NCBI RefSeq assembly: GCF_900110485.1
Contig: NZ_FODY01000028.1
Coordinates: 1-64,000, forward strand
Direction: 5' to 3'
Origin: Propionispora vibrioides
GTDB taxonomy: Bacteria; Bacillota; Negativicutes; Propionisporales; Propionisporaceae
Length of the DNA: 64,000 nucleotides
Shown here: positions 33,807 to 48,957 of the stretch, piece by piece
Numbering within the stretch: the stretch's first letter is position 1
Layout: each line of letters opens with the position of its first letter
The notes under the pieces: generated by a model
The model's input: the letters and a program-made list of their open reading frames with translations, nothing else
The model's database searches: none
Told to the model about the DNA's origin: nothing
Made by a program: the position numbers and the translations under genes

Positions 33807-33850
33807 AATGGCGCAAACCGTGAAAACCGGTTTGCGCCATTTTGTTTTTG
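33807..33850 (+). terminator. Terminator hairpin in the leader of the ABC operon (possible attenuator)
   Basis: A 14-base-pair stem (33807-33820 with 33828-33841) followed by TTTGTTTTT and, at once, the ribosome site of the ABC ATPase. It lies between the proposed promoter (33745-33773) and the gene. It could also end the upstream ArsC transcript. A small CAAATT/AATTTG hairpin precedes it. Confidence 0.8.
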
Positions 33851-33862
33851 GAGGGGAAAGCG

Positions 33863-34621
33863 ATGGCGGTCAGCTTTGAACATATTTATAAAGCTTTTGA
33901 TGAAGTAAACGGAAAACCGCAATATGTTTTGCAGGATATCAACCTAACGATAGAGACCGGCCAGTTCATCTGTATCTTAGGTAAGAGCGGCTGCGGCAAA
34001 TCCACGCTGCTCAACCTGTTGGCCGGTTACCTGAAACCGGACAAAGGCCGTATTCTGGTAGACGATAACCGGGTGGAAGGCCCGGCGGCCGACCGGGGCG
34101 TCGTATTTCAGCAGCACGCTCTGTTTCCCTGGTATACGGTGCAGGAGAATGTGGAGTTCGGTCTCAGGCTGAAAAGCCGGAAGGACGCGGCTCAGATCGC
34201 TGCTCAATACATTTCGTTGATCGGGCTGGAGGGGTATGAGAAGCTGTATCCGGCCGAACTGTCCGGCGGCATGGCGCAGCGAGTGGGCATTGCCCGGGCG
34301 CTGGTTAACGATCCAGCCGTGCTGCTGATGGATGAACCGCTGGGGGCGTTGGACGCGCTGACCCGCGATACCATGCGCAAGGAACTGATCCGGATCTGGC
34401 AATTGAGTCAAAAGACCGTCTTCTTCATTACTCACAGTGTACCGGAGGCGGTTTACCTGGCCGACCGGGTAGTGCTCTTAAAGCAGGGCGAGGTTGCCCT
34501 GGACCAGCCGATCGACCTGCCGCGGCCGCGGGAGACAAAGTCGCAGGAGTTTTTAAGCTATGTCGAGCTTTTTGAACAAGGTTTGACCGATAATCAGGCA
34601 GAGTCAGTCATTACGGAATAG
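33863..34621 (+). CDS. NitT/TauT-type ABC transporter ATP-binding protein
   Basis: 252 residues. Walker A GKSGCGKST, Q-loop in VVFQQHALFPW, signature LSGGMAQRVGIARAL, Walker B VLLMDEPLGALD and switch His in FITHSVPEAV are intact. It belongs to the SsuB/TauB/NrtD group that powers import of sulfonates, nitrate, pyrimidine precursors and similar small anions. The operon continues with a permease and two binding lipoproteins. The allantoin genes downstream suggest a ureide or purine-derived substrate. GGAGGGG precedes ATG 33863. Confidence 0.93.
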   Translation: MAVSFEHIYKAFDEVNGKPQYVLQDINLTIETGQFICILGKSGCGKSTLLNLLAGYLKPDKGRILVDDNRVEGPAADRGVVFQQHALFPWYTVQENVEFGLRLKSRKDAAQIAAQYISLIGLEGYEKLYPAELSGGMAQRVGIARALVNDPAVLLMDEPLGALDALTRDTMRKELIRIWQLSQKTVFFITHSVPEAVYLADRVVLLKQGEVALDQPIDLPRPRETKSQEFLSYVELFEQGLTDNQAESVITE

Positions 34622-34634
34622 AGAGGTGATTAAC

Positions 34635-35522
34635 ATGACGACAATGGAAGAAGGTTTGCTGAAGCTGCAGCGAGGGCTCCCTGCGCTACCGCAGGAAGAG
34701 GCGATCGTTCCCCGGAAAATTTCGGAAGCCAGAAAAGAACGAAACAATAAATACTACAAAGGCATTTCCCTATTCATTTTCTTCTGTATCTGGCAATTTG
34801 TCAGCCATCTGAATGGATTGAACCAGTGGTTCAATCCGGTGTTCCTGCCGTCACCCGTGACGGTGGTGAAAACAGGCTATGAATATTTTATGGCCGGTAC
34901 CCTGGTTGATCATCTGACTATGAGTTTTTACCGGATGATTGCCGGCTTTTCCATCGGCGTGGTGGTGGCCCTGGTGTTGGGTATTCTGATTGCTACCAGC
35001 CGTGAGTTTGACAATATCCTGTCGCCGGTCCTGAATATGGTGGGCCCCATTCCGGTATTCGCCTTTTTGCCGATGTTTCTCATTTGGTTCGGCATTGGCG
35101 AATCATCTAAGATTGCCCTGATCGCTTACGCCACCTTTATACCGCTCCTCAGCTACATTGTGGACGGCATAAAAAATACCGATCCGGTGCTGATCCGGTC
35201 GGCGCGCAGTCTGGGAGCCACGCCCCGTCAGGTATTTACCAAGATCATTTTGCATTCGGCCCTGCCCCATATCTTCGCCGGTATGAAAATCAGTCTGGCG
35301 TTGACCTTTTCCGCCCTGGTGGTGGCCGAAATGATGGGCGCGTCATCCGGACTGGGCTACATCATTGTGAATGCCAAAAACTGGTTCAAAATGTCCGATA
35401 TGTTTTTGTCGGCCACTTTGATCGGTTTGGAATATACCCTGTTTTACGGGATATTGACCTGCATAGAAAACCATTTGTTTAAATGGAAAAAAGCCGGGGC
35501 CAGTAAAGCGGTGGAACATTGA
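34635..35522 (+). CDS. NitT/TauT-type ABC transporter permease
   Basis: 295 residues with a hydrophilic N-terminus of about 40 residues and six membrane helices. The ABC coupling loop (SARSLGATPRQVFTKIILHSALPHIFAGMKISLALTFS) holds the EAA-type motif of SsuC-like permeases. It forms the homodimeric inner-membrane channel of the importer. ATG 34635 is preferred over GTG 34626 because GAGAGGTG then has normal spacing. It lies 13 bases after the ATPase gene. Confidence 0.93.
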   Translation: MTTMEEGLLKLQRGLPALPQEEAIVPRKISEARKERNNKYYKGISLFIFFCIWQFVSHLNGLNQWFNPVFLPSPVTVVKTGYEYFMAGTLVDHLTMSFYRMIAGFSIGVVVALVLGILIATSREFDNILSPVLNMVGPIPVFAFLPMFLIWFGIGESSKIALIAYATFIPLLSYIVDGIKNTDPVLIRSARSLGATPRQVFTKIILHSALPHIFAGMKISLALTFSALVVAEMMGASSGLGYIIVNAKNWFKMSDMFLSATLIGLEYTLFYGILTCIENHLFKWKKAGASKAVEH

Positions 35523-35552: not shown

Positions 35553-36593
35553 ATGAGAAAACGTATGGTAGGGTTAGGTTTGGCGGTTTGTATGCTGGCC
35601 GCGCTGGTAGCCGGCTGTGGCTCAGGCGGCCAGAAGACGGAGAAAGAGGCACCCAAAGCGGCGTCACAGGAGATTGTCGCCTATGGCGTCATTGATCCGC
35701 AGATTTCGGCGCAGCAGATTATTGCCGACAAAAAGGGCTTTTTTGCCGCCGAGGGAGTCAAGGTGACCAATAAGCTGATCCAGTCGGGCGGCGATATTTC
35801 ACCGTTGATCTCGGGCGGTACGGCCCAGGTATCCTTTGAAACACCGTACACCGACATTGCCGTGGCAGCCAATAATGTAGGCGTTAAAATTGTGGCACCC
35901 ATGGCCGATATCGGCAATACCCAGGCAGTGGTGGCCGGCAAGAATGTAACCATTCAGAAGGCGAAAGATTTGGAAGGCAAGAAAATCGGTATCGCGGCCG
36001 GGGCCGGCGTATTGATCGCCATCCGCAATATGTGTGCCGAGCTGGGAGTCGACATCAACAAAATCCAGTTTGTCATCTTAAGCCCCAGTGACCAGATTGC
36101 GGCCCTGGACCGCGGCGACATTGATCTGATGGCCTGTTGGGAACCGTGGGTCAGCAATGCCGTTAAAGCCGGCGGCAAGCTGCTGTTCAGCGGCCTCAAC
36201 TCCTATCTGCCGGACAAGCAGGGACCGGTGTCATGGCTGAGCTTTTACACGACCATGCAGGTGACCGACCAGTTCCTGAAAGAGCATCCTCAGGAGATTC
36301 AGGCAATGCTGAGAGCGTTGAAAAAGGCCACCGATTTCATTCATGAGCATCCCGATGAAGCCGCCGAAATCATTGCCAAGGAGATCAACCTTGACAAAGA
36401 ACAGGTAAAAAAGATTATGGGACAAAACAAATATTCCATGCAGTTTGACGATCATTTCAAAAAGTCCAGCGACGAAATGGCCTCGTTTATGAAAGAAATG
36501 AAAAATATCCCCAGCAAGCCGGAGTTCAAGCAATATGCCGATCCGACGCTGTTAAAGCAGGCCTTGCCGGAATTGGTGACGGTAGCAGAATAA
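35553..36593 (+). CDS. ABC substrate-binding lipoprotein 1 (NMT1/THI5-like)
   Basis: 346 residues. The lipoprotein signal ends in LVAGC with Cys22 as the lipid-attachment site. The mature protein has the SsuA/NMT1 bilobal pattern (DPQISAQQIIADKKGFFAAEGVKV, DLEGKKIGIAAGAGVLIAIRNM, LMACWEPWVSNAVKAGGKLLFSG). It would capture the substrate in the periplasm for the permease. It is followed within 18 bases by a paralogue with the same architecture. Lobes and the WEPW segment are intact in both, so this is a functional duplication rather than a decayed copy. Confidence 0.92.
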   Translation: MRKRMVGLGLAVCMLAALVAGCGSGGQKTEKEAPKAASQEIVAYGVIDPQISAQQIIADKKGFFAAEGVKVTNKLIQSGGDISPLISGGTAQVSFETPYTDIAVAANNVGVKIVAPMADIGNTQAVVAGKNVTIQKAKDLEGKKIGIAAGAGVLIAIRNMCAELGVDINKIQFVILSPSDQIAALDRGDIDLMACWEPWVSNAVKAGGKLLFSGLNSYLPDKQGPVSWLSFYTTMQVTDQFLKEHPQEIQAMLRALKKATDFIHEHPDEAAEIIAKEINLDKEQVKKIMGQNKYSMQFDDHFKKSSDEMASFMKEMKNIPSKPEFKQYADPTLLKQALPELVTVAE

Positions 36594-36611: not shown

Positions 36612-37658
36612 ATGAGAATGAAAAAGGGATTGTTGCGTAGCTGCGCCGCCATGATGGTCATTGTAGCCGGCTTAGCAGCGGCCGGTTGCGGCGGCGGACA
36701 AAAGACTGCCGCGCCGGCTGCCGATTCAGGGGCAGCCAAGGAAATCATCGCCTATGGTGAACTGGACCCGCAGGTTTCGGGACAGCAGATTATTGCCGAG
36801 GAAATGGGCTATTTTAAGGAAGAGGGCTTAAATATTAAAAATAAACTGATGACCGGGCCTGATGAGAATGCAGCTCTGGTTGCCAGCGGTGAAGCGGGCA
36901 TTTGCTTCGGTTCGATCTATAACAACATTGCCGTGTCCGCCAACGGCGTAAAGGTCAAGGTGTTGGCACCGCTGGCCAATGCCGCCGGCACGCAGAGCGT
37001 GGTGGGGCGCAAGAATTTGCAGCTTACCAGCGCTAAGGATTTAGAAGGCAAGAAAATCGGCATGACTAACGGCGCCGGTGTATTAATCGCCATCCGCAAT
37101 ATGGCGGCGGCTACCGGCACCGATATCAACAAAATTCAGTTTGTCAATCTGCCGGTTTCCGATCAACTGGCGGCGCTGGAAAAAGGCGATATTGATGCTA
37201 TGGCGGCCTGGGAACCGTGGGTTGGCAAGGCTGTCGACATGGGTGGCAAACTGCTGTTCAGCGGTACGACTTCCAACTTACCGGACAAACAGGGCGATGT
37301 TCACTGGATTGACTTTTATATGACGGTCCAGGTTACCGATGATTTTTACCAAAAGAATCCGGAAGTGGCTGAAAAGCTGCTGAAAGCGTTGCATAAAGCC
37401 ACTGACTATATCAATCAGCATCCGAAAGAGGCTGCCGCCATCATCGCTAAACGGATTAACATCAAGGAAGATGAGTGCTTCCGCATTATGCAGAAAAACG
37501 TGTATGCCATGAACTATGATCAGCAGTTTGTCGACGGGGCCAACAAAATGGCCGAATTCATGCTGGATATGAAGAATATCAAGGCGGTGCCGGAGGCTAA
37601 AACCTATCTGGACCCCGGCGTATTAAAGAAAGTTTTCCCCGAAGCAGTGAAAATCTAA
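36612..37658 (+). CDS. ABC substrate-binding lipoprotein 2, paralogue of the preceding gene
   Basis: 348 residues with lipobox AAAGC (Cys26). Nearly every core segment of the first binding protein recurs (ELDPQVSGQQIIAEEMGYFKEEGL, KDLEGKKIGMTNGAGVLIAIRNM, AAWEPWVGKAVDMGGKLLFSGTTSNLPDKQGDVHW), but the ligand-facing loops differ (MTGPDENAALVASGEAGICFGSIYNN versus LIQSGGDISPLISGGTAQVSFETPYTD). The pair therefore probably widens the substrate range of one importer. Copy B of the palindromic repeat begins 16 bases after the stop. Confidence 0.92.
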   Translation: MRMKKGLLRSCAAMMVIVAGLAAAGCGGGQKTAAPAADSGAAKEIIAYGELDPQVSGQQIIAEEMGYFKEEGLNIKNKLMTGPDENAALVASGEAGICFGSIYNNIAVSANGVKVKVLAPLANAAGTQSVVGRKNLQLTSAKDLEGKKIGMTNGAGVLIAIRNMAAATGTDINKIQFVNLPVSDQLAALEKGDIDAMAAWEPWVGKAVDMGGKLLFSGTTSNLPDKQGDVHWIDFYMTVQVTDDFYQKNPEVAEKLLKALHKATDYINQHPKEAAAIIAKRINIKEDECFRIMQKNVYAMNYDQQFVDGANKMAEFMLDMKNIKAVPEAKTYLDPGVLKKVFPEAVKI

Positions 37659-37673: not shown

Positions 37674-37836
37674 GGTAAGCACTGATTAAATGAACCTGTC
37701 GGGCTGGCGAGAGATTTTTTCGTCTGGTAAGGAAGTAAACCGCAGAAATAGCGGCCCCTATTGCAAGATTTTGCTGACGCAGCCAGGCGGAAAAAGCTCC
37801 ATCAGAACGCGCAGTATGAATTAATCAGTGGTTGCC
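37674..37836 (+). repeat. Palindromic intergenic repeat, copy B
   Basis: 163 bases with inverted ends GGTAAGCACTGATTAA (37674-37689) and TTAATCAGTGGTTGCC (37821-37836), 14 of 16 matching. The interior (GCGGCCCCTATTGCAAG, TGCTGACGCAGCCAGGCGG) is nearly identical to copy A. It fills the gap between the convergent ABC and pucR genes. Confidence 0.85.
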
Positions 37837-37846
37837 CAGGATCATG

Positions 37847-39460
37847 TTACTTTTGTTTTCGTAAATCCCAAGAGCAGAGTCCCAGATATAACAGAAAATT
37901 TTCGTCCATATCACTCAAGTCGGTATGGAGAAGCTCTTTGATCTTTTCAATCCGATGCAGCATGGTATTGCGGTGCAGGTAGAGCTGTTTGGCGGCCACG
38001 CTGGAGTTGAACTTGCTTTGAAAATACACTTTCAGCGTGGCTGTTAAATCGGTATTGTTCTGGGTGTCGAAGTCGAGCAGCGGCTGCAGGGTACTTTCAA
38101 TGACTTGGCTGCTATCCTTTTTATAGTAATGAAGCAATAAATGGTAAGCTATCTGATGAAAATAAGAAGCCGGTGCCGTCTGTTTTAAGCGCTGCTGCAG
38201 GGCAAGGGCCTGCAGGCTTTCTTCAAAGGAAGTGTGCAAAGCCTGCAAAGTATGGTGAAAACCGCTGATGCCGGCCGGCAGTGGAAGTTGGCTGAGCTGC
38301 TGGGCTTGCTGGCAAAGCCGTCTGGCGGTATGGCGGACTTCATTGATCGCATAGACAGGGTTGCTATCGACGGAAAACAGGAAAAACGCGCAGAACAGGC
38401 TGTCGTTGGCGCAGGTGAAAACGGCTGTCTCGTCGGTGCGCGTCTGAGAGCAATAGTTTTGCAGCAAAGTCAGGAGCTTCTTTTTTTGCAGATCGCTGTA
38501 AGCTTGCAGGGAGAAGCTGGCACAAACCCAGGCTTTATGATAGTTGAACCCGTAAAAGGAACAGATTTGCTGCGTTTCCTCCGGGGTGGCCTGGGTATGG
38601 TGCATCAGAAAATTTAAGAAGAAATGAGCGCGGTTGGCAGGGCCCGGCCGGGACACTTGTTGCTGTTCGCAGGCAAGGGCCATGATTTGAGCCGCTTTAT
38701 GTAATACAGCCATAGCCTGGCTAGCGGCCGGCTGGCTCTGGATGAGGAGACAAAGATAACCCAGATGGTTGGGCAGCAGGCTGGCCAAGAGAAGGTACTG
38801 CCGGTCATTCAGAGTGAGACTGAAATCGGTCAGCGGCATTGTCTGTTCGGTGAGCCGGTCGGCCATGACAGCGGCCGCTTCGGCAAGCTGGCCGCTGTCA
38901 AAGGCGGCCGGTGCTGCCAGAGCGAGACAGGCGTAAGACAGGTCGGTAACTAAGACCGGGCTGCCGAAAAAATCGGCCATGATTTTCACCAGGCAAGTCA
39001 GGTCTTTATGCTGAAAAAAGGCGTCGCTCAGTTCCGTAATGAGCTGCTGGTCCTGGAGCGCTTGTTGGTGCTGTTGCAGGTACAGCTTATTATATACGGT
39101 ATGAATGATTTCCGAGAAGCCGTAGAAAAAGGGCAGTTCGATGACCGGAAAATCCAGCTTTCTGGCTTCGTCCAGCAAAGGCTCGGGAATGGTTTTGAAA
39201 AAACGCTTGATTTTGACGGCAAGTCCGGCGCAGCCGATTTCTTTCATTTCCCGGATAATGGTACGCTGCAGTTCAGGGTCATCCTTAAAAATATAGCCGG
39301 TGGTCAGGATAAGCTCGTTCTTTTTAAACCATTTCAGCACATCCGGATTATCGAGGATGTTGACGCTGGTAATTTCACCGGACGACTGAAGATTGCCGAC
39401 AACTAAACGGATATTGTTTAACTGACTGTGATGAATAAACCAATCCAACGTAACTGCCAT
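37847..39460 (-). CDS. pucR: PucR-family purine-catabolism regulator
   Basis: About 537 residues. The N-terminal PucR domain (about 1-125, GEITSVNILDNPDVLKWFKKNELILTTGY) is followed by a GGDEF-like linker region and a C-terminal PucR-type HTH_30 (LKVYFQSKFNSSVAAKQLYLHRNTMLHRIEKIKELL, about 470-510). PucR activates purine/ureide genes in Bacillus when allantoin-type intermediates are present. It is divergent from the allantoinase operon and next to the ABC importer, so it probably controls both. The ATG at 39460 has AAAGGG 9 bases upstream. The ATG at 39469 would directly abut it. Confidence 0.92.
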   Translation of the reverse strand: MAVTLDWFIHHSQLNNIRLVVGNLQSSGEITSVNILDNPDVLKWFKKNELILTTGYIFKDDPELQRTIIREMKEIGCAGLAVKIKRFFKTIPEPLLDEARKLDFPVIELPFFYGFSEIIHTVYNKLYLQQHQQALQDQQLITELSDAFFQHKDLTCLVKIMADFFGSPVLVTDLSYACLALAAPAAFDSGQLAEAAAVMADRLTEQTMPLTDFSLTLNDRQYLLLASLLPNHLGYLCLLIQSQPAASQAMAVLHKAAQIMALACEQQQVSRPGPANRAHFFLNFLMHHTQATPEETQQICSFYGFNYHKAWVCASFSLQAYSDLQKKKLLTLLQNYCSQTRTDETAVFTCANDSLFCAFFLFSVDSNPVYAINEVRHTARRLCQQAQQLSQLPLPAGISGFHHTLQALHTSFEESLQALALQQRLKQTAPASYFHQIAYHLLLHYYKKDSSQVIESTLQPLLDFDTQNNTDLTATLKVYFQSKFNSSVAAKQLYLHRNTMLHRIEKIKELLHTDLSDMDENFLLYLGLCSWDLRKQK

Positions 39461-39479
39461 ACCGTTCATCCCTTTGCCA

Positions 39480-39539
39480 GGTAACCACTGATTAATTCAC
39501 GCTGCGCGTTCCGGCAGGTTCATCTAACCAGCGGTTACC
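39480..39539 (-). repeat. Palindromic intergenic repeat, copy E (minimal form)
   Basis: 60 bases with inverted ends GGTAACCACTGATT (39480-39493) and AACCAGCGGTTACC (39526-39539). The inside (TTCACGCTGCGCGTTCCGGC) equals the right end of copy A in reverse complement, joined directly to the opposite end. It lies in the pucR-allB promoter region. Confidence 0.75.
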
Positions 39540-39565
39540 TTGATAAGTTTGGCTAGATTATATCA

Positions 39566-39612: not shown

Positions 39613-40977
39613 GTGTACGATCTTTTAATAAAGAATGCCCGATTGGTTACCGCCGATGAAGTGATCGCGGCAGCGGTAGCGGTGAAGGATGGCAAGGTTG
39701 CCGCCGTTCTGGCCGGTGAAACGCCGGTGCCGGCGCGACAGGTGCTGGATTTGACAGGGAAATACCTGCTGCCGGGCGTGATTGACTGCCATGTACATTT
39801 TAACGAACCGGGCTATACCTGGCGGGAAGAGTTCGCCCAGGGCAGCCGGGCGGCCGCGGCCGGCGGTGTGACAACGGTGATCGACATGCCGATGCAGAAC
39901 AGGCCGCCGGTTATCGACCGGGAGGTCTTTGCCCGTAAGGCGGAACTGCTGCAGGGGAAATCAGCCATTGATTACGGCTTTTGGGGCGCTCTGATCAAGA
40001 CGAATTTGGATAAACTGAGCGGTTTGCAGGAAGCAGGCACGCTGGCCTTTAAATGTTTTATGTGCAATCCGGGTCAGGACTATACGGCGCTGGATATAGC
40101 GGAAATTGAACAGGTACTGGTTACTTTACGGGAGTTTGACGGGCTGGCCGGCTTTCACTGTGAGGATTATGCCATGATTGAACGGCTGCAGACAGCCAGT
40201 CTGGCCACCGGGAAAACCGGCCGTCGCGATTATCTGGCGGCGCGGCCGGTCGAGGCCGAACTGAAAGCCGTTAACGACATCATTGCTTTGCTGGATAAAA
40301 CGGAAGGCCGGGCCCATATCTGTCATGTTTCCCACCCGGCCGTGGCGGAAGCCATCCGGCAGGCTAAAGTAAAGGGGCTGGATATTACAGCTGAAACCTG
40401 TGTGCATTATTTGCTCTTCACCGGGGAGGACCTGGTGAACGAGGGGCCCCGGTTTAAATGTTCGCCGCCGCTCCGGACGGCAGCCGACCGGAAAAAGCTG
40501 TGGGACTATGTGCTGGACGGCACGCTGGACTGCATCTGCTCCGATCACTCGCCCTGCGCGCCGGAAGAGAAGGCGGAGGCTTCCGAGACCGGCACTTTTG
40601 GCGCCTGGGGCGGCATCAGCGGGGTACAGACTTCGCTGCAGGCTTTTTGGGATTTGGCGATTACGCAAAAGGGGGCGGACCCGTCGTTGGTGGCCCGGGT
40701 GATGAGCATAAATCCGGCGGCCATTTTCGGTCTGGATGGTGTCAAAGGCACCGTCATGCCCGGCCGGGATGCTGATTTTACCGTGATAGATCCGCAAAAA
40801 AACTGGGAAATTACTGCTGATGAGCTGCTTTACAAGCATAAATTTTCGGCCTTTACCGGTCTTAGCGGCACTGGCGCGCCGGTTATGACCATCGTCCGGG
40901 GGCAGGTTGTGATGGAAGACGGCCGGCTACGGGACGGGTGTACCGGTCAACTGGTCCGCCGCTGCAGGGAGGAATAG
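39613..40977 (+). CDS. allB: Allantoinase
   Basis: 454 residues from GTG 39613 with AAGGAAGG upstream. Cyclic amidohydrolase metal ligands are all visible: HxH at His60/His62 (GVIDCHVHFNEPG), the carboxylated Lys147 (LAFKCFM), His182 (GFHCED), His238 (CHVSH) and Asp311 (CSDHSPC). It opens the hydantoin ring of allantoin to give allantoate, the first step of ureide breakdown, in the cytosol. The following allantoate and ureidoglycine enzymes make allantoinase far more likely than dihydropyrimidinase or hydantoinase. First gene of a five-gene operon. Confidence 0.92.
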   Translation: MYDLLIKNARLVTADEVIAAAVAVKDGKVAAVLAGETPVPARQVLDLTGKYLLPGVIDCHVHFNEPGYTWREEFAQGSRAAAAGGVTTVIDMPMQNRPPVIDREVFARKAELLQGKSAIDYGFWGALIKTNLDKLSGLQEAGTLAFKCFMCNPGQDYTALDIAEIEQVLVTLREFDGLAGFHCEDYAMIERLQTASLATGKTGRRDYLAARPVEAELKAVNDIIALLDKTEGRAHICHVSHPAVAEAIRQAKVKGLDITAETCVHYLLFTGEDLVNEGPRFKCSPPLRTAADRKKLWDYVLDGTLDCICSDHSPCAPEEKAEASETGTFGAWGGISGVQTSLQAFWDLAITQKGADPSLVARVMSINPAAIFGLDGVKGTVMPGRDADFTVIDPQKNWEITADELLYKHKFSAFTGLSGTGAPVMTIVRGQVVMEDGRLRDGCTGQLVRRCREE

Positions 40978-40979
40978 CT

Positions 40980-42209
40980 ATGGAACTGGAATTGGCACGG
41001 CTGGCGGAACGGATTGAAGGTCATTTGGCAAAGCTGCGCTGCTTTTCGGCAACCGTGGAGGGTGTTACCCGGCTGCCTTTTACCGTCGAAGCCCGTCAGG
41101 CAATTGATTATCTGGCGGAAGCTATGAAGCAGGCCGGCATGACTGTACGGTTGGATGCATCAGGAGCTCTGATTGGGCGGTATGAAGGCCAAACGGCGCA
41201 AACGGTGGTGCTCGGTTCCCATTATGACTCGGTGCCACGCGGTGGCGCTTTTGACGGCGTTGCCGGTGTGGTCTGCGGCCTGGAACTGGTGCGGGAACTG
41301 GCGGTGACCGGCCGGCGCCTGCCCTGGTCGCTGGAGGTGGTGGCCACCAATGATGAGGAAGGCGTACGGTTTGGCGGCGGCTTTTTCTCCAGTAAGGCAT
41401 TTTTAGGTCTGTGGCAGCCGGCTCAGTTGGCTGCTATCCATGACGGCGAGGGGATCAGTCTGGCGGCAGCCATGCGAGGCTTCGGCCTGGAGCCGGAGCA
41501 GATCGGTCAGGCCGTCTGGGACTTAACTAACATCCGCTGTTTTATTGAAATTCACTGTGAGCAGGGGCCGGTGCTGGAACAGCAGCAGCAGGAAATCGGC
41601 ATTGTCAGCGGTATTGTCGGCATGCGCCGCTATGCGATAAGCTTGCAGGGGCGGCCGGATCATGCGGGGACCACACCGATGACCATGCGGACCGACGCGC
41701 TGGCGCTGGCCGCCCGGCTGATCAGCAAGGCCGAGGATACGGCGCTGGCTTATCCCGGCGCTGTTGCCACCGTCGGCTTTTGCGATATCCGGCCTAATGT
41801 GGTGAACACCATTGCCGGGCAGGTAGTGTGCAGTCTGGATATCCGGAGCCGGTGGGAAGCCGATATACAGGCCATGGAAACTGAAATTCTGGGCTTTATC
41901 CGGAATTTGGCCCGGACGCGGCAGGCCGGCTGTGAAGTAAACCGCACGCTGACGGTACAGCCGGTGGAACTGGACCGGACCTTGCAGGGGCTGCTGGAAA
42001 ATAGCTGCCGCCGCCGGGGCTATGCTTTCGGCCATTTGCCCAGTGGCGCCGGCCATGACGCCCTGCAATTGGCGACGGCAGTGGCGACGGCCATGGTATT
42101 TGTACCCAGCCGGCAAGGCCGCAGCCATTGCCCGGAGGAATATAGCGACAGCCGCCATCTGGCCAAAGCCGTGCTGGCTGTGCTGGATACGCTGGAAAAT
42201 TTGCCATAG
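40980..42209 (+). CDS. allC: Allantoate amidohydrolase (M20-family)
   Basis: 409 residues. Bimetal motifs are GSHYDSVPRGGAFDG (His81, Asp92) and NDEEGVRFGGG with the paired Glu near 126-127, plus later His in the dimer-domain GRPDHAGTTPM and PSRQGRSHCPEE. It hydrolyses allantoate to (S)-ureidoglycine, ammonia and CO2. The start follows the allB stop by only 2 bases with AGGGAGG upstream, so the two are tightly coupled. A second M20 enzyme lies three genes downstream and has a different signature, arguing for different steps. Confidence 0.9.
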   Translation: MELELARLAERIEGHLAKLRCFSATVEGVTRLPFTVEARQAIDYLAEAMKQAGMTVRLDASGALIGRYEGQTAQTVVLGSHYDSVPRGGAFDGVAGVVCGLELVRELAVTGRRLPWSLEVVATNDEEGVRFGGGFFSSKAFLGLWQPAQLAAIHDGEGISLAAAMRGFGLEPEQIGQAVWDLTNIRCFIEIHCEQGPVLEQQQQEIGIVSGIVGMRRYAISLQGRPDHAGTTPMTMRTDALALAARLISKAEDTALAYPGAVATVGFCDIRPNVVNTIAGQVVCSLDIRSRWEADIQAMETEILGFIRNLARTRQAGCEVNRTLTVQPVELDRTLQGLLENSCRRRGYAFGHLPSGAGHDALQLATAVATAMVFVPSRQGRSHCPEEYSDSRHLAKAVLAVLDTLENLP

Positions 42210-42220
42210 GAGGAAAAATC

Positions 42221-42979
42221 ATGGGATATCCAAGTGATGTATTAAGTACCCGTGCCATCGTGAAACCAGGCTTGTATGCCATCATTCCGAAGGACGGGTT
42301 GGTCAATAATGTGATTCCTTATATCGAAAACTGCCGGGTTAGTATTGTGGCCTCGCCGAAAATGGGCGCCGGCTTTGTCCAGTATGTGGTGGAAGCGGCG
42401 CCGGGCGGCCGGACAACAGCACCCTTCGGCGGTGAGCCGGCGATCGAAAGTTTCTTGTACTGCATCGAAGGCGTGCTGGCCGTTACGGTTGGTCAGGAAC
42501 AGTTTGTACTGACTGCCGGCGGTTTTATCTACGCGCCGGCCGGTGCGGGCATTGCCTTTTCCAGTGAAGCACCGAGCAAGCTGCTTTTGTATAAGCAGCG
42601 TTATATCCCGCTGGCCGGGAAAGCCGCGTATACTTGTGCCGGCAATGTCAACGAGATCGCTTACCGGAATTATGACGATATGGCCAATGTATATATCAAG
42701 GACTTGCTGCCCGCCGGGCTGGGGTTTGATATGAATATGCATATCCTGGCCTTTGAGCCGGGCGGTTGCCATCCCTTTGTGGAGACTCACGTGCAGGAGC
42801 ATGGTGCCTATATTTTAAGCGGCGAAGGGATGTACCTGATGGAAAACACCTGGCTGCCAATCAAAAAGGACGACTTTATGTGGTTCGGTCCCTATGTGCC
42901 CCAGGGCGCTTATGGGGTGGGCCGGGACCTGTTTGCCTATATTTATTCCAAAGACTGCAACCGGGATGTCGTGTTATAA
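42221..42979 (+). CDS. allE: (S)-ureidoglycine aminohydrolase (bicupin)
   Basis: 252 residues with two cupin domains. The C-terminal cupin carries the manganese site of the family: Glu188, His190, His194 (FVETHVQEHGAY) and Gln228 (YVPQG). The enzyme releases ammonia from (S)-ureidoglycine to give (S)-ureidoglycolate, preventing racemising spontaneous decay. Length and motif order match the plant and E. coli (YlbA/AllE) enzymes. Its ribosome site AGGAGG overlaps the allC end, and 11 bases separate the genes. Confidence 0.93.
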   Translation: MGYPSDVLSTRAIVKPGLYAIIPKDGLVNNVIPYIENCRVSIVASPKMGAGFVQYVVEAAPGGRTTAPFGGEPAIESFLYCIEGVLAVTVGQEQFVLTAGGFIYAPAGAGIAFSSEAPSKLLLYKQRYIPLAGKAAYTCAGNVNEIAYRNYDDMANVYIKDLLPAGLGFDMNMHILAFEPGGCHPFVETHVQEHGAYILSGEGMYLMENTWLPIKKDDFMWFGPYVPQGAYGVGRDLFAYIYSKDCNRDVVL

Positions 42980-42994
42980 CCGAGGAGGATGACT

Positions 42995-43936
42995 ATGAAA
43001 ATTGCAATTATTGAACCCTTGGGCGTCGAACGGGAAAAACTGCGGCAAATCGCCGCCGAAGTGCTGGGGAAAGACGTTGATATTACCTATTATGACAGCT
43101 TTCCCGCCGATCAGGCGGAGGTGGTAGCCCGGTCCCGGACAGCCGATATCGTCGTGCTGGCCAATATGCCCTATCGCGAAGCGGTGCTGGCCCAGTGCCC
43201 GCAGCTTGCCATGCTGTCGGTGGCTTTTACCGGAATTGATCATATTGATATGGCTTATTGCCGGCGGAACAACATTACCGTCTGCAATTGTGCCGGTTAT
43301 TCCAATGAGGCGGTCAGCGAGCTGGTCTTCGGGCTGGTGCTTGGCTTGTATCGCCGCCTGATTGCCTGTGATACGGCGGTGCGCCGGGGCGGGACCAAGG
43401 ACGGACTGATCGGGTTTGAGCTGGCGGGAAAAAAATTCGGTATTGTCGGCACCGGTGCCATCGGGTTGAAAGTGGCGGCGCTGGCCCGGGCCTTTGGCTG
43501 CGAGGTGTATGCCTACAGCCGGACGGTGAAGGAAATGCCGGGCATCCGCTATGTGGATTTGGATACGCTGCTGGCAACCTGTGACATCGTATCACTCCAT
43601 GTACCGCTTATGGAACAGACCAGGGGCATGATTAACCGGGATAAACTGGCGCTGATGAAACAGAACGCTGTTTTGATTAATACGGCCCGCGGTCCTGTCG
43701 TTGATGCCGCGGCGTTGGCTGAGGCCCTGACGGAAGGGCGGCTGGCCGGGGCGGCGATGGATGTTTTTGAACAGGAGCCGCCTATTCCGGCCGAGCATCC
43801 GCTGCTGCAGGCGCCTAACGTCATCCTGGCGCCCCATGTTGGTTTTGCGACCCAAGAGGCCCTGGGTAAACGGGCGGTTATCGCCTTGGAGAATATAAAA
43901 CAGTGGCTGGCTAAGACGCCACAAAATGTAATGTAG
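42995..43936 (+). CDS. D-isomer-specific 2-hydroxyacid dehydrogenase (likely glyoxylate reductase role)
   Basis: 313 residues. The NAD(P)-binding GTGAIG (152-157) and the catalytic Arg232 (NTARGP), Glu261 (EQEPP) and His281 (LAPHVGF) are intact. Enzymes of this family reduce glyoxylate, hydroxypyruvate or other 2-oxoacids. Placed between ureidoglycine aminohydrolase and the second M20 enzyme, it most plausibly reduces the glyoxylate formed by the pathway to glycolate. Direct oxidation of ureidoglycolate is a less usual alternative, since known AllD belongs to another family. ATG 42995 has GAGGAGG 6 bases upstream. Confidence 0.88.
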   Translation: MKIAIIEPLGVEREKLRQIAAEVLGKDVDITYYDSFPADQAEVVARSRTADIVVLANMPYREAVLAQCPQLAMLSVAFTGIDHIDMAYCRRNNITVCNCAGYSNEAVSELVFGLVLGLYRRLIACDTAVRRGGTKDGLIGFELAGKKFGIVGTGAIGLKVAALARAFGCEVYAYSRTVKEMPGIRYVDLDTLLATCDIVSLHVPLMEQTRGMINRDKLALMKQNAVLINTARGPVVDAAALAEALTEGRLAGAAMDVFEQEPPIPAEHPLLQAPNVILAPHVGFATQEALGKRAVIALENIKQWLAKTPQNVM

Positions 43937-43964
43937 AAGGAAGCAGAACGAAGGTGGCGTTATT

Positions 43965-45212
43965 ATGACAAAGCAGGCAAGTGCAGCCAACATCCGCCAT
44001 TGGCTGGAAACGATCAACACCTATAACTCCACGCCGGGAGCCGGTACTACACGGGTTTTGTTCACCAAGCCCGAGGTGGAGGCCAGACAATATGTAAAGG
44101 ACGAAATGCGGAAGCTTGGGCTGGCGGTAAAAGAAGACGGGATCGGCAACATTTTCGGCATTTTGCCAGGCCGCCGGCCGGAACTGCCGCCGGTCTGGAC
44201 GGGATCACATATTGATACGGTGCTCCATGCCGGCATGTTTGATGGCATGAGCGGTGTGGTGGCCGGTTTGGAGGCGGTGCGGCTGATCCGGGAAGCCGGT
44301 GCCGCCTTTGAACGAAGCATTGTTGTGGTGGTGTACACCTCGGAAGAACCTACCCGCTTTGAACTTGGCTGTCTGGGCAGCCGGGCGCTGGCTGGCAAAC
44401 TGAGCCTGGCCGATGCCTGTAAGCTGGTGGATAAGGAGGGCCGGAGCCTGCCGGAGGTGCTTGCGGAGCTTGGTTATGACCTGGCCCGGTTTGCTGAAAT
44501 TCCTATCAGGCCGGGCGCGGTATACGGCGCAGTGGAGCTTCATATTGATCAGACCGGCGTGTTGGAGCGGGCGGGGAAAACGGTGGGAATTGTCAAAACC
44601 ATCTGTGCGCCGACCAACTTCGATATCGAGGTGACCGGCTGTCAGTCCCATGCCGGCGGCACTTCCATGGAGGAGCGGCGCGATGCCTATGCGGCAAGCT
44701 GTGAAATCGGCCTGGCATTGGAAAAACTGGCCCGCGAGTCGGACAGCGAATATACGACGGCTACCATAGGGCGGGTAGAAGTCTGCCCCAATGCGGTCAA
44801 TGTCATTCCGGGCAAGGTAAAGTTCTCCATTGATATCCGTGACTGCGATTTTGACGCCAAAGAGCGGCTGGTGGCCAAACTAAAAGCGGCGATTGCCGTC
44901 ATTGAGGAAAAACGCGGCGTTCAGGTGAGCCTGACCGAATACAATAACGACCAGCCGATGCACTGTAATACGGCGATGATGGCTAAGATTGAGGCGGCCT
45001 GTCACCGGCGCGGCATTTCCTATCAAAAGGTGATCAGCGGCGCTTTCCATGATTCGATGCTGGTCGGGGAATTTGCTCCGGTGGCGATGATCTTTGTACC
45101 CAGCAAAAACGGCATCAGCCATAGCGCCGAGGAATGGACCGAGTTTGCGGATATTGCCGCCGGCACCGATGTGCTTATGGATACGCTGCTGGCTATGGCG
45201 AATGAAGTGTAA
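43965..45212 (+). CDS. Ureidoglycolate amidohydrolase-like M20-family enzyme
   Basis: 415 residues. Metal motif SHIDTVLHAGMFDG (His82, Asp93), then TSEEPTRF (125-132) and CLGSR (136-140), a combination found in plant ureidoglycolate amidohydrolase and distinct from the allC NDEEG motif. Later SHAGGTSMEERRDA and the PSKNGISHSAEEW ligand region are conserved. It would split (S)-ureidoglycolate to glyoxylate, two ammonia and CO2, closing a urea-free route. A general N-carbamoyl-amino-acid hydrolase is the main alternative. Last gene of the operon, followed by a hairpin. Confidence 0.82.
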   Translation: MTKQASAANIRHWLETINTYNSTPGAGTTRVLFTKPEVEARQYVKDEMRKLGLAVKEDGIGNIFGILPGRRPELPPVWTGSHIDTVLHAGMFDGMSGVVAGLEAVRLIREAGAAFERSIVVVVYTSEEPTRFELGCLGSRALAGKLSLADACKLVDKEGRSLPEVLAELGYDLARFAEIPIRPGAVYGAVELHIDQTGVLERAGKTVGIVKTICAPTNFDIEVTGCQSHAGGTSMEERRDAYAASCEIGLALEKLARESDSEYTTATIGRVEVCPNAVNVIPGKVKFSIDIRDCDFDAKERLVAKLKAAIAVIEEKRGVQVSLTEYNNDQPMHCNTAMMAKIEAACHRRGISYQKVISGAFHDSMLVGEFAPVAMIFVPSKNGISHSAEEWTEFADIAAGTDVLMDTLLAMANEV

Positions 45213-45223
45213 AGGGCATGGTA

Positions 45224-45265
45224 AAACCCTGTTCGAGAGCATATGCTTTCGGACAGGGTTTGCTG
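45224..45265 (+). terminator. Hairpin ending the ureide operon
   Basis: AAACCCTGT (45224-45232) pairs with ACAGGGTTT (45253-45261), with CGA/TCG and AGC/GCT inside. The tail GCTGTTTGG is only weakly T-rich. Confidence 0.6.
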
Positions 45266-48009: not shown

Positions 48010-48957
48010 ATGAAACAGAAAATTTCTATGTTAGGTGTTCCCATGTGGTTGGGACAAACGCGGTACGGCACCAATATGGGGCCGTCGGAGCTGCGGCTTG
48101 CCGGCTTGACAGGCCGTCTAAAGCAGCTTGGTCTGGAAGTGGCCGATGAGGGTAATATCCCGGTGGGAAGTGCCGGGCCGCGCAAACTAGCAGATAAGAA
48201 TATGAAGAATACTAAAGCCGTTGTCAAAGCTAATGAGAAGTTGGCGGCAAAGGTTTCCGATATGGTAAAGAGAGGGCGATTTCCCCTGGTATTGGGTGGC
48301 GACCACAGCATTGCCATCGGTACACTGGCGGGCCTTGCCAAGCACTATAAGAATCTGGGGGTCATCTGGTATGACGCGCATGCCGATATGAATACTCCGG
48401 AGACCTCGCCTAGCGGCAATATTCATGGAATGCCGCTGGCCGCCAGCATGGGACTGGGGCCGGCCTGCCTGACGCAGATCGGCGGTTACAGCCACAAGGT
48501 CCGGCCGGAAAATATTGTGCTAATTGGCGTCCGGGATATCGATCCCGGTGAGCAGGAACTGATTGCCAATGCCCGGATTAAGGCGTTCTCAGCGGACGAT
48601 GTTAACCGGCTCGGCATAGACAGAGTTATGCAGGCGGCGCTCGATTATTTGGCCGAACGCTGCGACGGCATCCATCTCAGTTTTGATCTGGACGGCATTG
48701 ATCCGACGGAAATTCCCGGTGTAGGTACGCCGGTGAGTGCCGGCATCAGCTATGCCGACAGCCTGCAAGCCGTTGAACTGCTGTTTAACTCCCGAAAAAT
48801 TACTTCCGCCGAATTTGTGGAAGTCAATCCACTGCTGGATAAAGGCGGCATCAGCGCCCAACGGACGGTGGATTTAGTCAGTACCTTATTTGGCGAAAAA
48901 AGTGCGCTGGCGCTCCGGAGCGAGATTTCGGTCGGTGCAGCACAGCACGTGGTATAA
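48010..48957 (+). CDS. rocF: Arginase
   Basis: 315 residues. Manganese-binding motifs are GGDHSIAIG, the DAHADMNTPETSPSGNIHGMPLA block and SFDLDGIDPTEIPGVGTPV; the substrate SGNIHG segment identifies arginase rather than agmatinase. It splits arginine to ornithine and urea. No urease or ornithine genes are nearby in this window. It appears monocistronic with its own promoter and terminator, close to but transcribed apart from the ureide cluster. Confidence 0.94.
   Translation: MKQKISMLGVPMWLGQTRYGTNMGPSELRLAGLTGRLKQLGLEVADEGNIPVGSAGPRKLADKNMKNTKAVVKANEKLAAKVSDMVKRGRFPLVLGGDHSIAIGTLAGLAKHYKNLGVIWYDAHADMNTPETSPSGNIHGMPLAASMGLGPACLTQIGGYSHKVRPENIVLIGVRDIDPGEQELIANARIKAFSADDVNRLGIDRVMQAALDYLAERCDGIHLSFDLDGIDPTEIPGVGTPVSAGISYADSLQAVELLFNSRKITSAEFVEVNPLLDKGGISAQRTVDLVSTLFGEKSALALRSEISVGAAQHVV

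Follow-up and report, generated by a model that had tools for sequence, protein, structure and literature searches.

A predicted ammonia-releasing allantoin operon in Propionispora vibrioides with a putative ureidoglycolate amidohydrolase of a Bacillota subclade

The stretch of DNA that we analysed (the window) comprises 64,000 nucleotides, positions 1 to 64,000 of contig NZ_FODY01000028.1 (C28) in the 4.43-Mb genome of Propionispora vibrioides (G000), and it very probably carries a complete operon for allantoin degradation that uses the ammonia-releasing branch of the pathway, in which the last ureido group is hydrolysed by (S)-ureidoglycolate amidohydrolase (UAH). Five tightly packed genes on the + strand (39613-45212) encode allantoinase (AllB, 39613-40977), a first M20 enzyme to which we assign the role of allantoate amidohydrolase (AAH, 40980-42209), (S)-ureidoglycine aminohydrolase (UGLYAH, AllE, 42221-42979), a D-2-hydroxyacid dehydrogenase that is probably an NADPH-dependent glyoxylate reductase (42989-43936), and a second M20 enzyme, the predicted UAH (43965-45212). 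The intergenic distances are 2, 11, 9 and 28 bases in this order, and a purine-rich ribosome-binding site lies ahead of all five starts. A preliminary description of the region had named these genes, and we found them at the place and on the strand it gave; its statement that the four pathway enzymes are consecutive is not strictly correct, because the dehydrogenase gene separates UGLYAH from the second M20 gene.

In the pathway that we propose, allantoin would be imported by an ATP-binding cassette (ABC) transporter encoded upstream and opened by AllB to allantoate, from which the first M20 enzyme would take one ureido group to give (S)-ureidoglycine, CO2 and NH3. UGLYAH would deaminate (S)-ureidoglycine to (S)-ureidoglycolate, and the second M20 enzyme would hydrolyse the remaining ureido group to leave CO2, two NH3 and glyoxylate, for a net yield of four NH3 per allantoin without urea or oxamate. 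The dehydrogenase would reduce glyoxylate to glycolate with NADPH, and a PucR-family protein probably regulates the operon. AllB, whose gene has a GTG start behind AAGGAAGG, scores 455 bits against TIGR03178 (cut-off 358), and UGLYAH scores 327 bits against TIGR03214 (cut-off 200), with E. coli YlbA (1rc6, 272 bits) as its top PDB match. The two M20 proteins belong to the hydantoinase/carbamoylase type and score well above the TIGR01879 cut-off of 204 bits (363 for the first and 369 for the second). The first of them most likely starts at the ATG at 40980, behind GGGAGG, rather than at the GTG at 40938. A congener (G002) has an equivalent gene set, each protein being 92-97% identical, and a member of another family (G056) has it in rearranged form at 52-69%; this recurrence takes the grouping beyond chance.

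The preliminary description had likened the second M20 enzyme to plant UAH on account of the motifs TSEEPTRF and CLGSR; both motifs are present, and phylogeny bears out the grouping. A position away from UAH in a tree, which that description named as refuting its reading, was looked for and did not appear. We assembled a set of 165 M20 sequences, leaving out rows L006 and L007 (the window's own M20 genes), L041 and L042 (copies of L102 and L103) and a 279-residue fragment in L090. In the tree of this set the second M20 enzyme and the Arabidopsis UAH (AtUAH) share one clade of 69 rows with a support of 98 in the Shimodaira-Hasegawa-like approximate likelihood ratio test (SH-aLRT), and this clade splits into 22 Bacillota rows, the window's among them, and 47 others that include AtUAH (99 each). 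The UAH sequences also form one clade in a tree of 49 rows, picked by hand from the 165, from which four diagnostic stretches had been removed (bootstrap 95, SH-aLRT 89, recovered in 96% of 200 bootstrap trees); here the Bacillota and AtUAH subclades are sisters, supported at 100/99 and 100/100. The trees also put a widespread EES-type M20 group (L014-L038, L134, L155 and relatives), which has Gly at position 361, close to the UAH clade; no UGLYAH gene was seen beside L134, L154, L155 or L162.

TSEEPTRF (44337-44360, + strand) comprises the catalytic Glu127, the metal ligand Glu128 and the UAH-typical Pro129-Thr130, and CLGSR is encoded at 44370-44384 (+ strand). Phe361 (45045-45047, + strand), an aromatic residue that precedes His-Asp, aligns with Tyr423 of AtUAH (numbered with an offset of +46 from a 430-residue chain ending at residue 476) and with Gly in AAH. 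Shin et al. in 2014 are said to have found that Tyr423 fills the space of allantoate's second ureido group and narrows the pocket. Within the UAH clade Pro129 occurs in 66/69 rows, Cys136 and Pro216 in 69/69 each, and an aromatic residue at 361 in 68/69, the remaining row having a gap, compared with 1/96, 1/96, 30/96 and 0/96, respectively, in the other rows, where position 361 is Gly in 93/96. His82, Asp93, Glu127, Glu128, His193 and His386, which we take to be the M20 catalytic and metal-binding residues, are invariant in a set of 25 bacterial rows from the UAH clade and kept in 68-69 of all 69, with one row gapped.

Structure agrees with this placement. The predicted model of the second M20 enzyme has a predicted local distance difference test score (pLDDT) of 93.2, and AtUAH occupies Foldseek ranks 1-2 and has the highest structural Z (54.9, followed by 52.8 for the next structure and 50.4 for EcAAH). 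Since all candidates share one fold family and the margin is small, this model-based ranking adds little weight. Overall identity, at 38% between the second M20 enzyme and AtUAH, was dropped as a discriminator because it is similar for AtUAH and the L-carbamoylase 3n5f, and we therefore relied on trees, alignment columns, structure and gene context.

Several observations weigh against reading this protein as UAH. In structural alignment it is 36% identical to AtUAH and 37% to 3n5f, and the corresponding phmmer scores, 294 and 265 bits, are close. Its best NCBIfam model is NF006771, named 'allantoate amidohydrolase', at 419 bits (cut-off 399). Characterised enzymes were represented in the trees by a single UAH, a single AAH and a single carbamoylase, with no plant AAH, and the division into two sister subclades leaves room for a possible change of substrate between the Bacillota proteins and AtUAH. 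NCBIfam naming was set aside as evidence on the M20 pair, because AtUAH itself has NF006771 as its best model, at 390 bits and thus under the cut-off. Taken with the clade, the residues and the gene context, the second M20 enzyme is predicted to be a UAH that acts on (S)-ureidoglycolate with release of two NH3.

The two M20 enzymes might instead have exchanged roles, the second being the allantoate amidohydrolase and the first acting on ureidoglycolate or another carbamoyl compound. We consider this quite improbable. What speaks for it is that the second protein slightly outscores the first on NF006771, a model that cannot separate the pair, being the top match of AtUAH as well; the first reaches 396 bits and falls just short of the subfamily cut-off of 399. 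AtUAH, however, groups with the second protein and not with the first, and at position 361 the first has Gly, as in AAH, whereas the second has Phe. Three Paenibacillus loci (L091-L093) keep the order AllB, M20, UGLYAH, dehydrogenase and UAH, with a first M20 of the E. coli AllC type; in L091 this protein scores 534 bits against NF006768, an equivalog model for allantoate deiminase with a cut-off of 532, and in the 49-row tree the proteins of L091 and L093 cluster with E. coli AllC at 100/100. A model-positive allantoate deiminase thus replaces the first M20 enzyme while the second stays, which assigns the allantoate step to the first and UAH to the second. The window's first M20 enzyme remains below the AAH equivalog cut-offs (AllC TIGR03176, 248 bits of 598; NF006768, 306 of 532) and for this reason is not classed with AllC; by analogy with the Paenibacillus loci, we assign it the function of an AAH that is not a member of AllC.

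Gene context beyond the window was examined in 80 loci, the best 80 of 273 matches in one search of a genome collection seeded with a UAH alignment; they include many close relatives and are not independent. Sixty-five of them, spread over seven phyla, carry a UAH-clade gene: 22 in Acidobacteriota, 19 in Bacillota, 17 in Verrucomicrobiota, two each in Chloroflexota and Deinococcota, one each in Spirochaetota and Pseudomonadota, and one unassigned. UGLYAH lies within the fetched stretch in 59 of these 65 loci and in none of the other 15. With the stricter signature of Pro129 and an aromatic residue at 361, 55 of 61 positive loci have UGLYAH, as do four of the 19 signature-negative ones, namely L100 (Ser), L102 and L103 (Met) and L101 (gapped). 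UGLYAH, AllB, a second M20 gene and UAH occur together in 38 of the 65, of which 13 are Bacillota. Among 398 sampled genomes of the phylum, UGLYAH is above cut-off in 12; a UAH gene lies near it in four (G000, G056, G030 and G051), and no UAH-type gene was seen in the stretch examined in the other eight. A profile search of 380 genomes of the class found UAH in 11; two of these belong to the genus itself and nine to one other family, and the motif is EEPTRF with Phe in six and EEMSRF with Tyr in five.

This co-occurrence bears on another alternative, that the second M20 enzyme hydrolyses N-carbamoyl amino acids and sits in the operon by chance. The protein is up to 40% identical to carbamoylase-type proteins of class-mates, the nearest non-UAH ones there, and its 37% to 3n5f points in the same direction. 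Yet it belongs to a different clade from 3n5f and the EES-type proteins, and UGLYAH accompanies 59 of the 65 UAH-clade loci as against none of the other 15. Furthermore, the pathway requires a ureidoglycolate step, and this genome has neither AllA nor AllG to fill it. We give a chance carbamoylase a very slim probability and retain UAH as the assignment.

Enzymes of competing routes were sought in 22 UAH-bearing Bacillota genomes, including that of P. vibrioides. AllA (ureidoglycolate lyase) is found in one of the other genomes, and AllG, uricase and, above its cut-off, glyoxylate carboligase (Gcl) in none of the 22; relatives from the large enzyme family of Gcl are present below cut-off in 21. 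Full urease alpha matches (185-192 bits) occur in five. The only match in P. vibrioides, of 28 bits, covers 42 of 121 positions and lies in a frame of 479 residues; it is formally above the Pfam cut-off of 23 and reads as another amidohydrolase rather than a convincing urease. These findings fit the earlier proposal of a route without urea or oxamate. A gene of the AllD family, present in two of the 22 genomes, does lie elsewhere in the P. vibrioides genome (G000:C24), next to another dehydrogenase gene, and its product is 33% identical to E. coli AllD; this counts against the proposed route and leaves AllD itself in play. Judged by these searches, neither the urea branch nor the oxamate branch is complete in P. 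vibrioides.

The AllD-family gene also raises the question of whether ureidoglycolate might be oxidised to oxalurate, either by this protein or by the co-encoded operon dehydrogenase, with the second M20 enzyme hydrolysing oxalurate to oxamate. The presence of both genes is what favours such a route. Against it, an AllD-family gene accompanies UAH in just two of the 22 genomes, the operon dehydrogenase is missing, at the threshold used, from all 46 UAH loci outside Bacillota, and a hydrolase with which the second M20 enzyme groups has been solved with ureidoglycolate bound (PDB 4pxb). The dehydrogenase, moreover, lacks the Asp typical of NAD-dependent enzymes and has Tyr-Ser-Arg in its place, which suits NADPH and reduction. 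Oxidation to oxalurate is the alternative to which we allow the slimmest chance, and hydrolysis of ureidoglycolate to glyoxylate the one we carry forward.

The dehydrogenase (PF02826, 207 bits) has homologues above 250 bits, the threshold used to count it in a locus, in 15 of the 19 Bacillota UAH loci. All 18 orthologues retain Arg234, Glu263 and His283, presumably the catalytic trio of D-2-hydroxyacid dehydrogenases. In every one of them the second strand of the cofactor fold is followed by Tyr-[Ser/Asn/Ala]-Arg, where five PDB relatives show Tyr-Asp. Loss of the Asp and gain of an Arg at this site usually indicates that an enzyme uses NADPH. The protein is below the glyoxylate reductase equivalogs (NF009714, 209 bits of 455; GhrB NF011938, 157 of 492). 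As no glyoxylate carboligase above cut-off was found in the genome, the enzyme most likely uses NADPH to reduce glyoxylate to glycolate, a substrate suggested by its context. Its conservation in Bacillota loci and its NADPH-type motif make a role as an electron sink plausible; glyoxylate detoxification would fit equally well, and the NADPH preference leans slightly towards it. In Mitsuokella (G030) an FAD oxidoreductase of the DAO family and EtfB/EtfA stand in place of the dehydrogenase, and the UAH motif is EEMSRF, not EEPTRF. In a cluster of this type (L041:9603-18699) the genes follow one another in the order UAH, FAD oxidoreductase, EtfB, EtfA, UGLYAH, a symporter of the SDF family, first M20 enzyme and AllB.

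Upstream of the operon, on the same strand, four open reading frames encode an ABC transporter of the NitT/TauT type that is a candidate ureide importer: an ATPase (33842-34621), a permease (34626-35522) whose homologues adjoin UAH in Bacillota loci, and two substrate-binding proteins, the first NMT1/SsuA-like (35553-36593 and 36612-37658; PF09084, 94 and 102 bits). A homologue of the ATPase above 200 bits lies beside UAH in 12 of the 19 Bacillota loci and in none of the 46 others. The putative regulator of the PucR family (37847-39469, - strand; PF07905, 101 bits, with HTH_30) diverges from allB and has homologues in 14 of the 19 Bacillota UAH loci. The conserved motif AACCACTGATTAATTCA upstream of allB was tried as a PucR box and rejected, because the 76-base stretch that contains it matches 46 places in the genome and is therefore a dispersed repeat. 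Within the window this repeat occurs at 39470-39545, between the PucR gene and allB, at 37677-37833 and at about 55890, so that two copies flank the PucR gene; elsewhere, paired end matches lie about 135 bases apart, which suggests an element of about 160 bases resembling a miniature inverted-repeat transposable element (MITE). A simple promoter scan found eight candidates where 6.0 were expected, and we claim no promoter.

The UAH gene is followed by a terminator-like hairpin of 17 pairs (45224-45261, + strand). Beyond this lies a convergent gene on the - strand for a putative cyclase (PF04199, 45291-45872), 93% identical in the congener and not seen in loci more distant than that. Further downstream, some genes away from the operon and outside its tight unit, lies an arginase gene (48010-48957; TIGR01229, 308 bits, cut-off 228).

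The four reactions predicted here, those of allantoinase, AAH, UGLYAH and UAH, are the same as in the ureide pathway of Arabidopsis; the plant protein compared was UAH. In contrast to the plant pathway, however, the genes form a bacterial operon and are accompanied by those for a 2-hydroxyacid dehydrogenase and for an importer of the ABC type, and, for all its likeness to AtUAH in clade, residues and fold, the enzyme belongs to a Bacillota subclade and has Phe rather than Tyr at 361 and Gly rather than Arg at 359. The term 'plant-like' used in the preliminary description undersells the breadth of a gene cluster that is widespread in bacteria. The clusters of Acidobacteriota and Verrucomicrobiota likewise combine UGLYAH, AllB, a second M20 enzyme and UAH; they differ in having no counterpart of the dehydrogenase or the ABC ATPase at the thresholds given above and in a UAH nearer to that of plants. 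The tree suggests that the single plant row nests among UAHs of this type, such as that at L127:10001-11215, with a best identity of 51% to an Opitutae protein, which hints that plant UAH may be of bacterial origin.

The E. coli all cluster has AllB, an AAH and AllE in common with the present operon. It differs in continuing through AllD-AllFGH-AllK or AllA-Gcl-GlxR-GlxK, of which AllA, AllG and Gcl are not found above cut-off in the P. vibrioides genome. A passage in PMC12535856 puts the yield in E. coli at three NH3 and oxamate, or two NH3 and urea, per allantoin, whereas four NH3 are predicted here. A third arrangement, in other Bacillota, shares UGLYAH and allantoin catabolism with ours, but an ornithine transcarbamylase (OTCase)-type carbamoyltransferase replaces the amidohydrolase, and no UAH-signature gene was seen in the stretches concerned. 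The carbamoyltransferase beside UGLYAH was recognised by Pfam in G338 and by eye in G209 and G359, and these loci likely represent a phosphorolytic ureide route resembling that of Rubrobacter, whose ureidoglycine carbamoyltransferase is the subject of a passage in PMC4016543. Two of the three loci (L076, L079 and L082) also carry a carbamate kinase gene. The reductive uric acid pathway was considered and dropped, as it runs via diaminopropionate with XdhD, YgfK and YgeX, and the relevant section of PMC12507026 names no UGLYAH.

Bacterial UAH as such is already known. Excerpts from earlier work cover plant UAH and its Enzyme Commission (EC) history (PMC3793230), the binuclear manganese site of AtUAH (PMC6117287) and the occurrence of UAH in plants and bacteria (PMC6320678, 2018). 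The literature covered, which excludes most subscription journals, yielded no description of this operon of Bacillota or of the dehydrogenase and importer that go with it. The form found in Bacillota, where a separate UAH subclade is linked with a hydroxyacid dehydrogenase of the NADPH type and with an ABC importer, appears to be new. The pathway itself is known, and the operon represents a variant of it that is specific to the lineage, not a new kind of system.

We suggest tentatively, as an idea that we hold to be possible but on balance unlikely, that this combination forms a fermentative ureide module specific to Bacillota, in which their own UAH subclade, the NADPH glyoxylate reductase and the NitT/TauT importer would together break each allantoin down to glycolate, which would be excreted, with release of four ammonia and two CO2. 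The ureide would then serve as both nitrogen source and electron acceptor, and the FAD oxidoreductase and Etf proteins of Mitsuokella would be a second solution to the redox problem. Genome annotation in its present form will miss the pathway, because Bacillota UAHs pass a model named 'allantoate amidohydrolase': NF006771 is passed by the window's UAH and by all four other Bacillota UAHs scanned, two of two from other phyla fall below its cut-off (395 and 375 bits against 399), and no NCBIfam model among those that score here separates UAH from AAH. The residue set EEPTRF, Cys136, Pro216 and aromatic 361 would detect the UAH pathway in genomes. The operon offers a testable gene set for full recovery of nitrogen from allantoin, without urea or oxamate as waste, in anaerobes that include rumen and gut relatives of Selenomonas, Mitsuokella and Clostridium.

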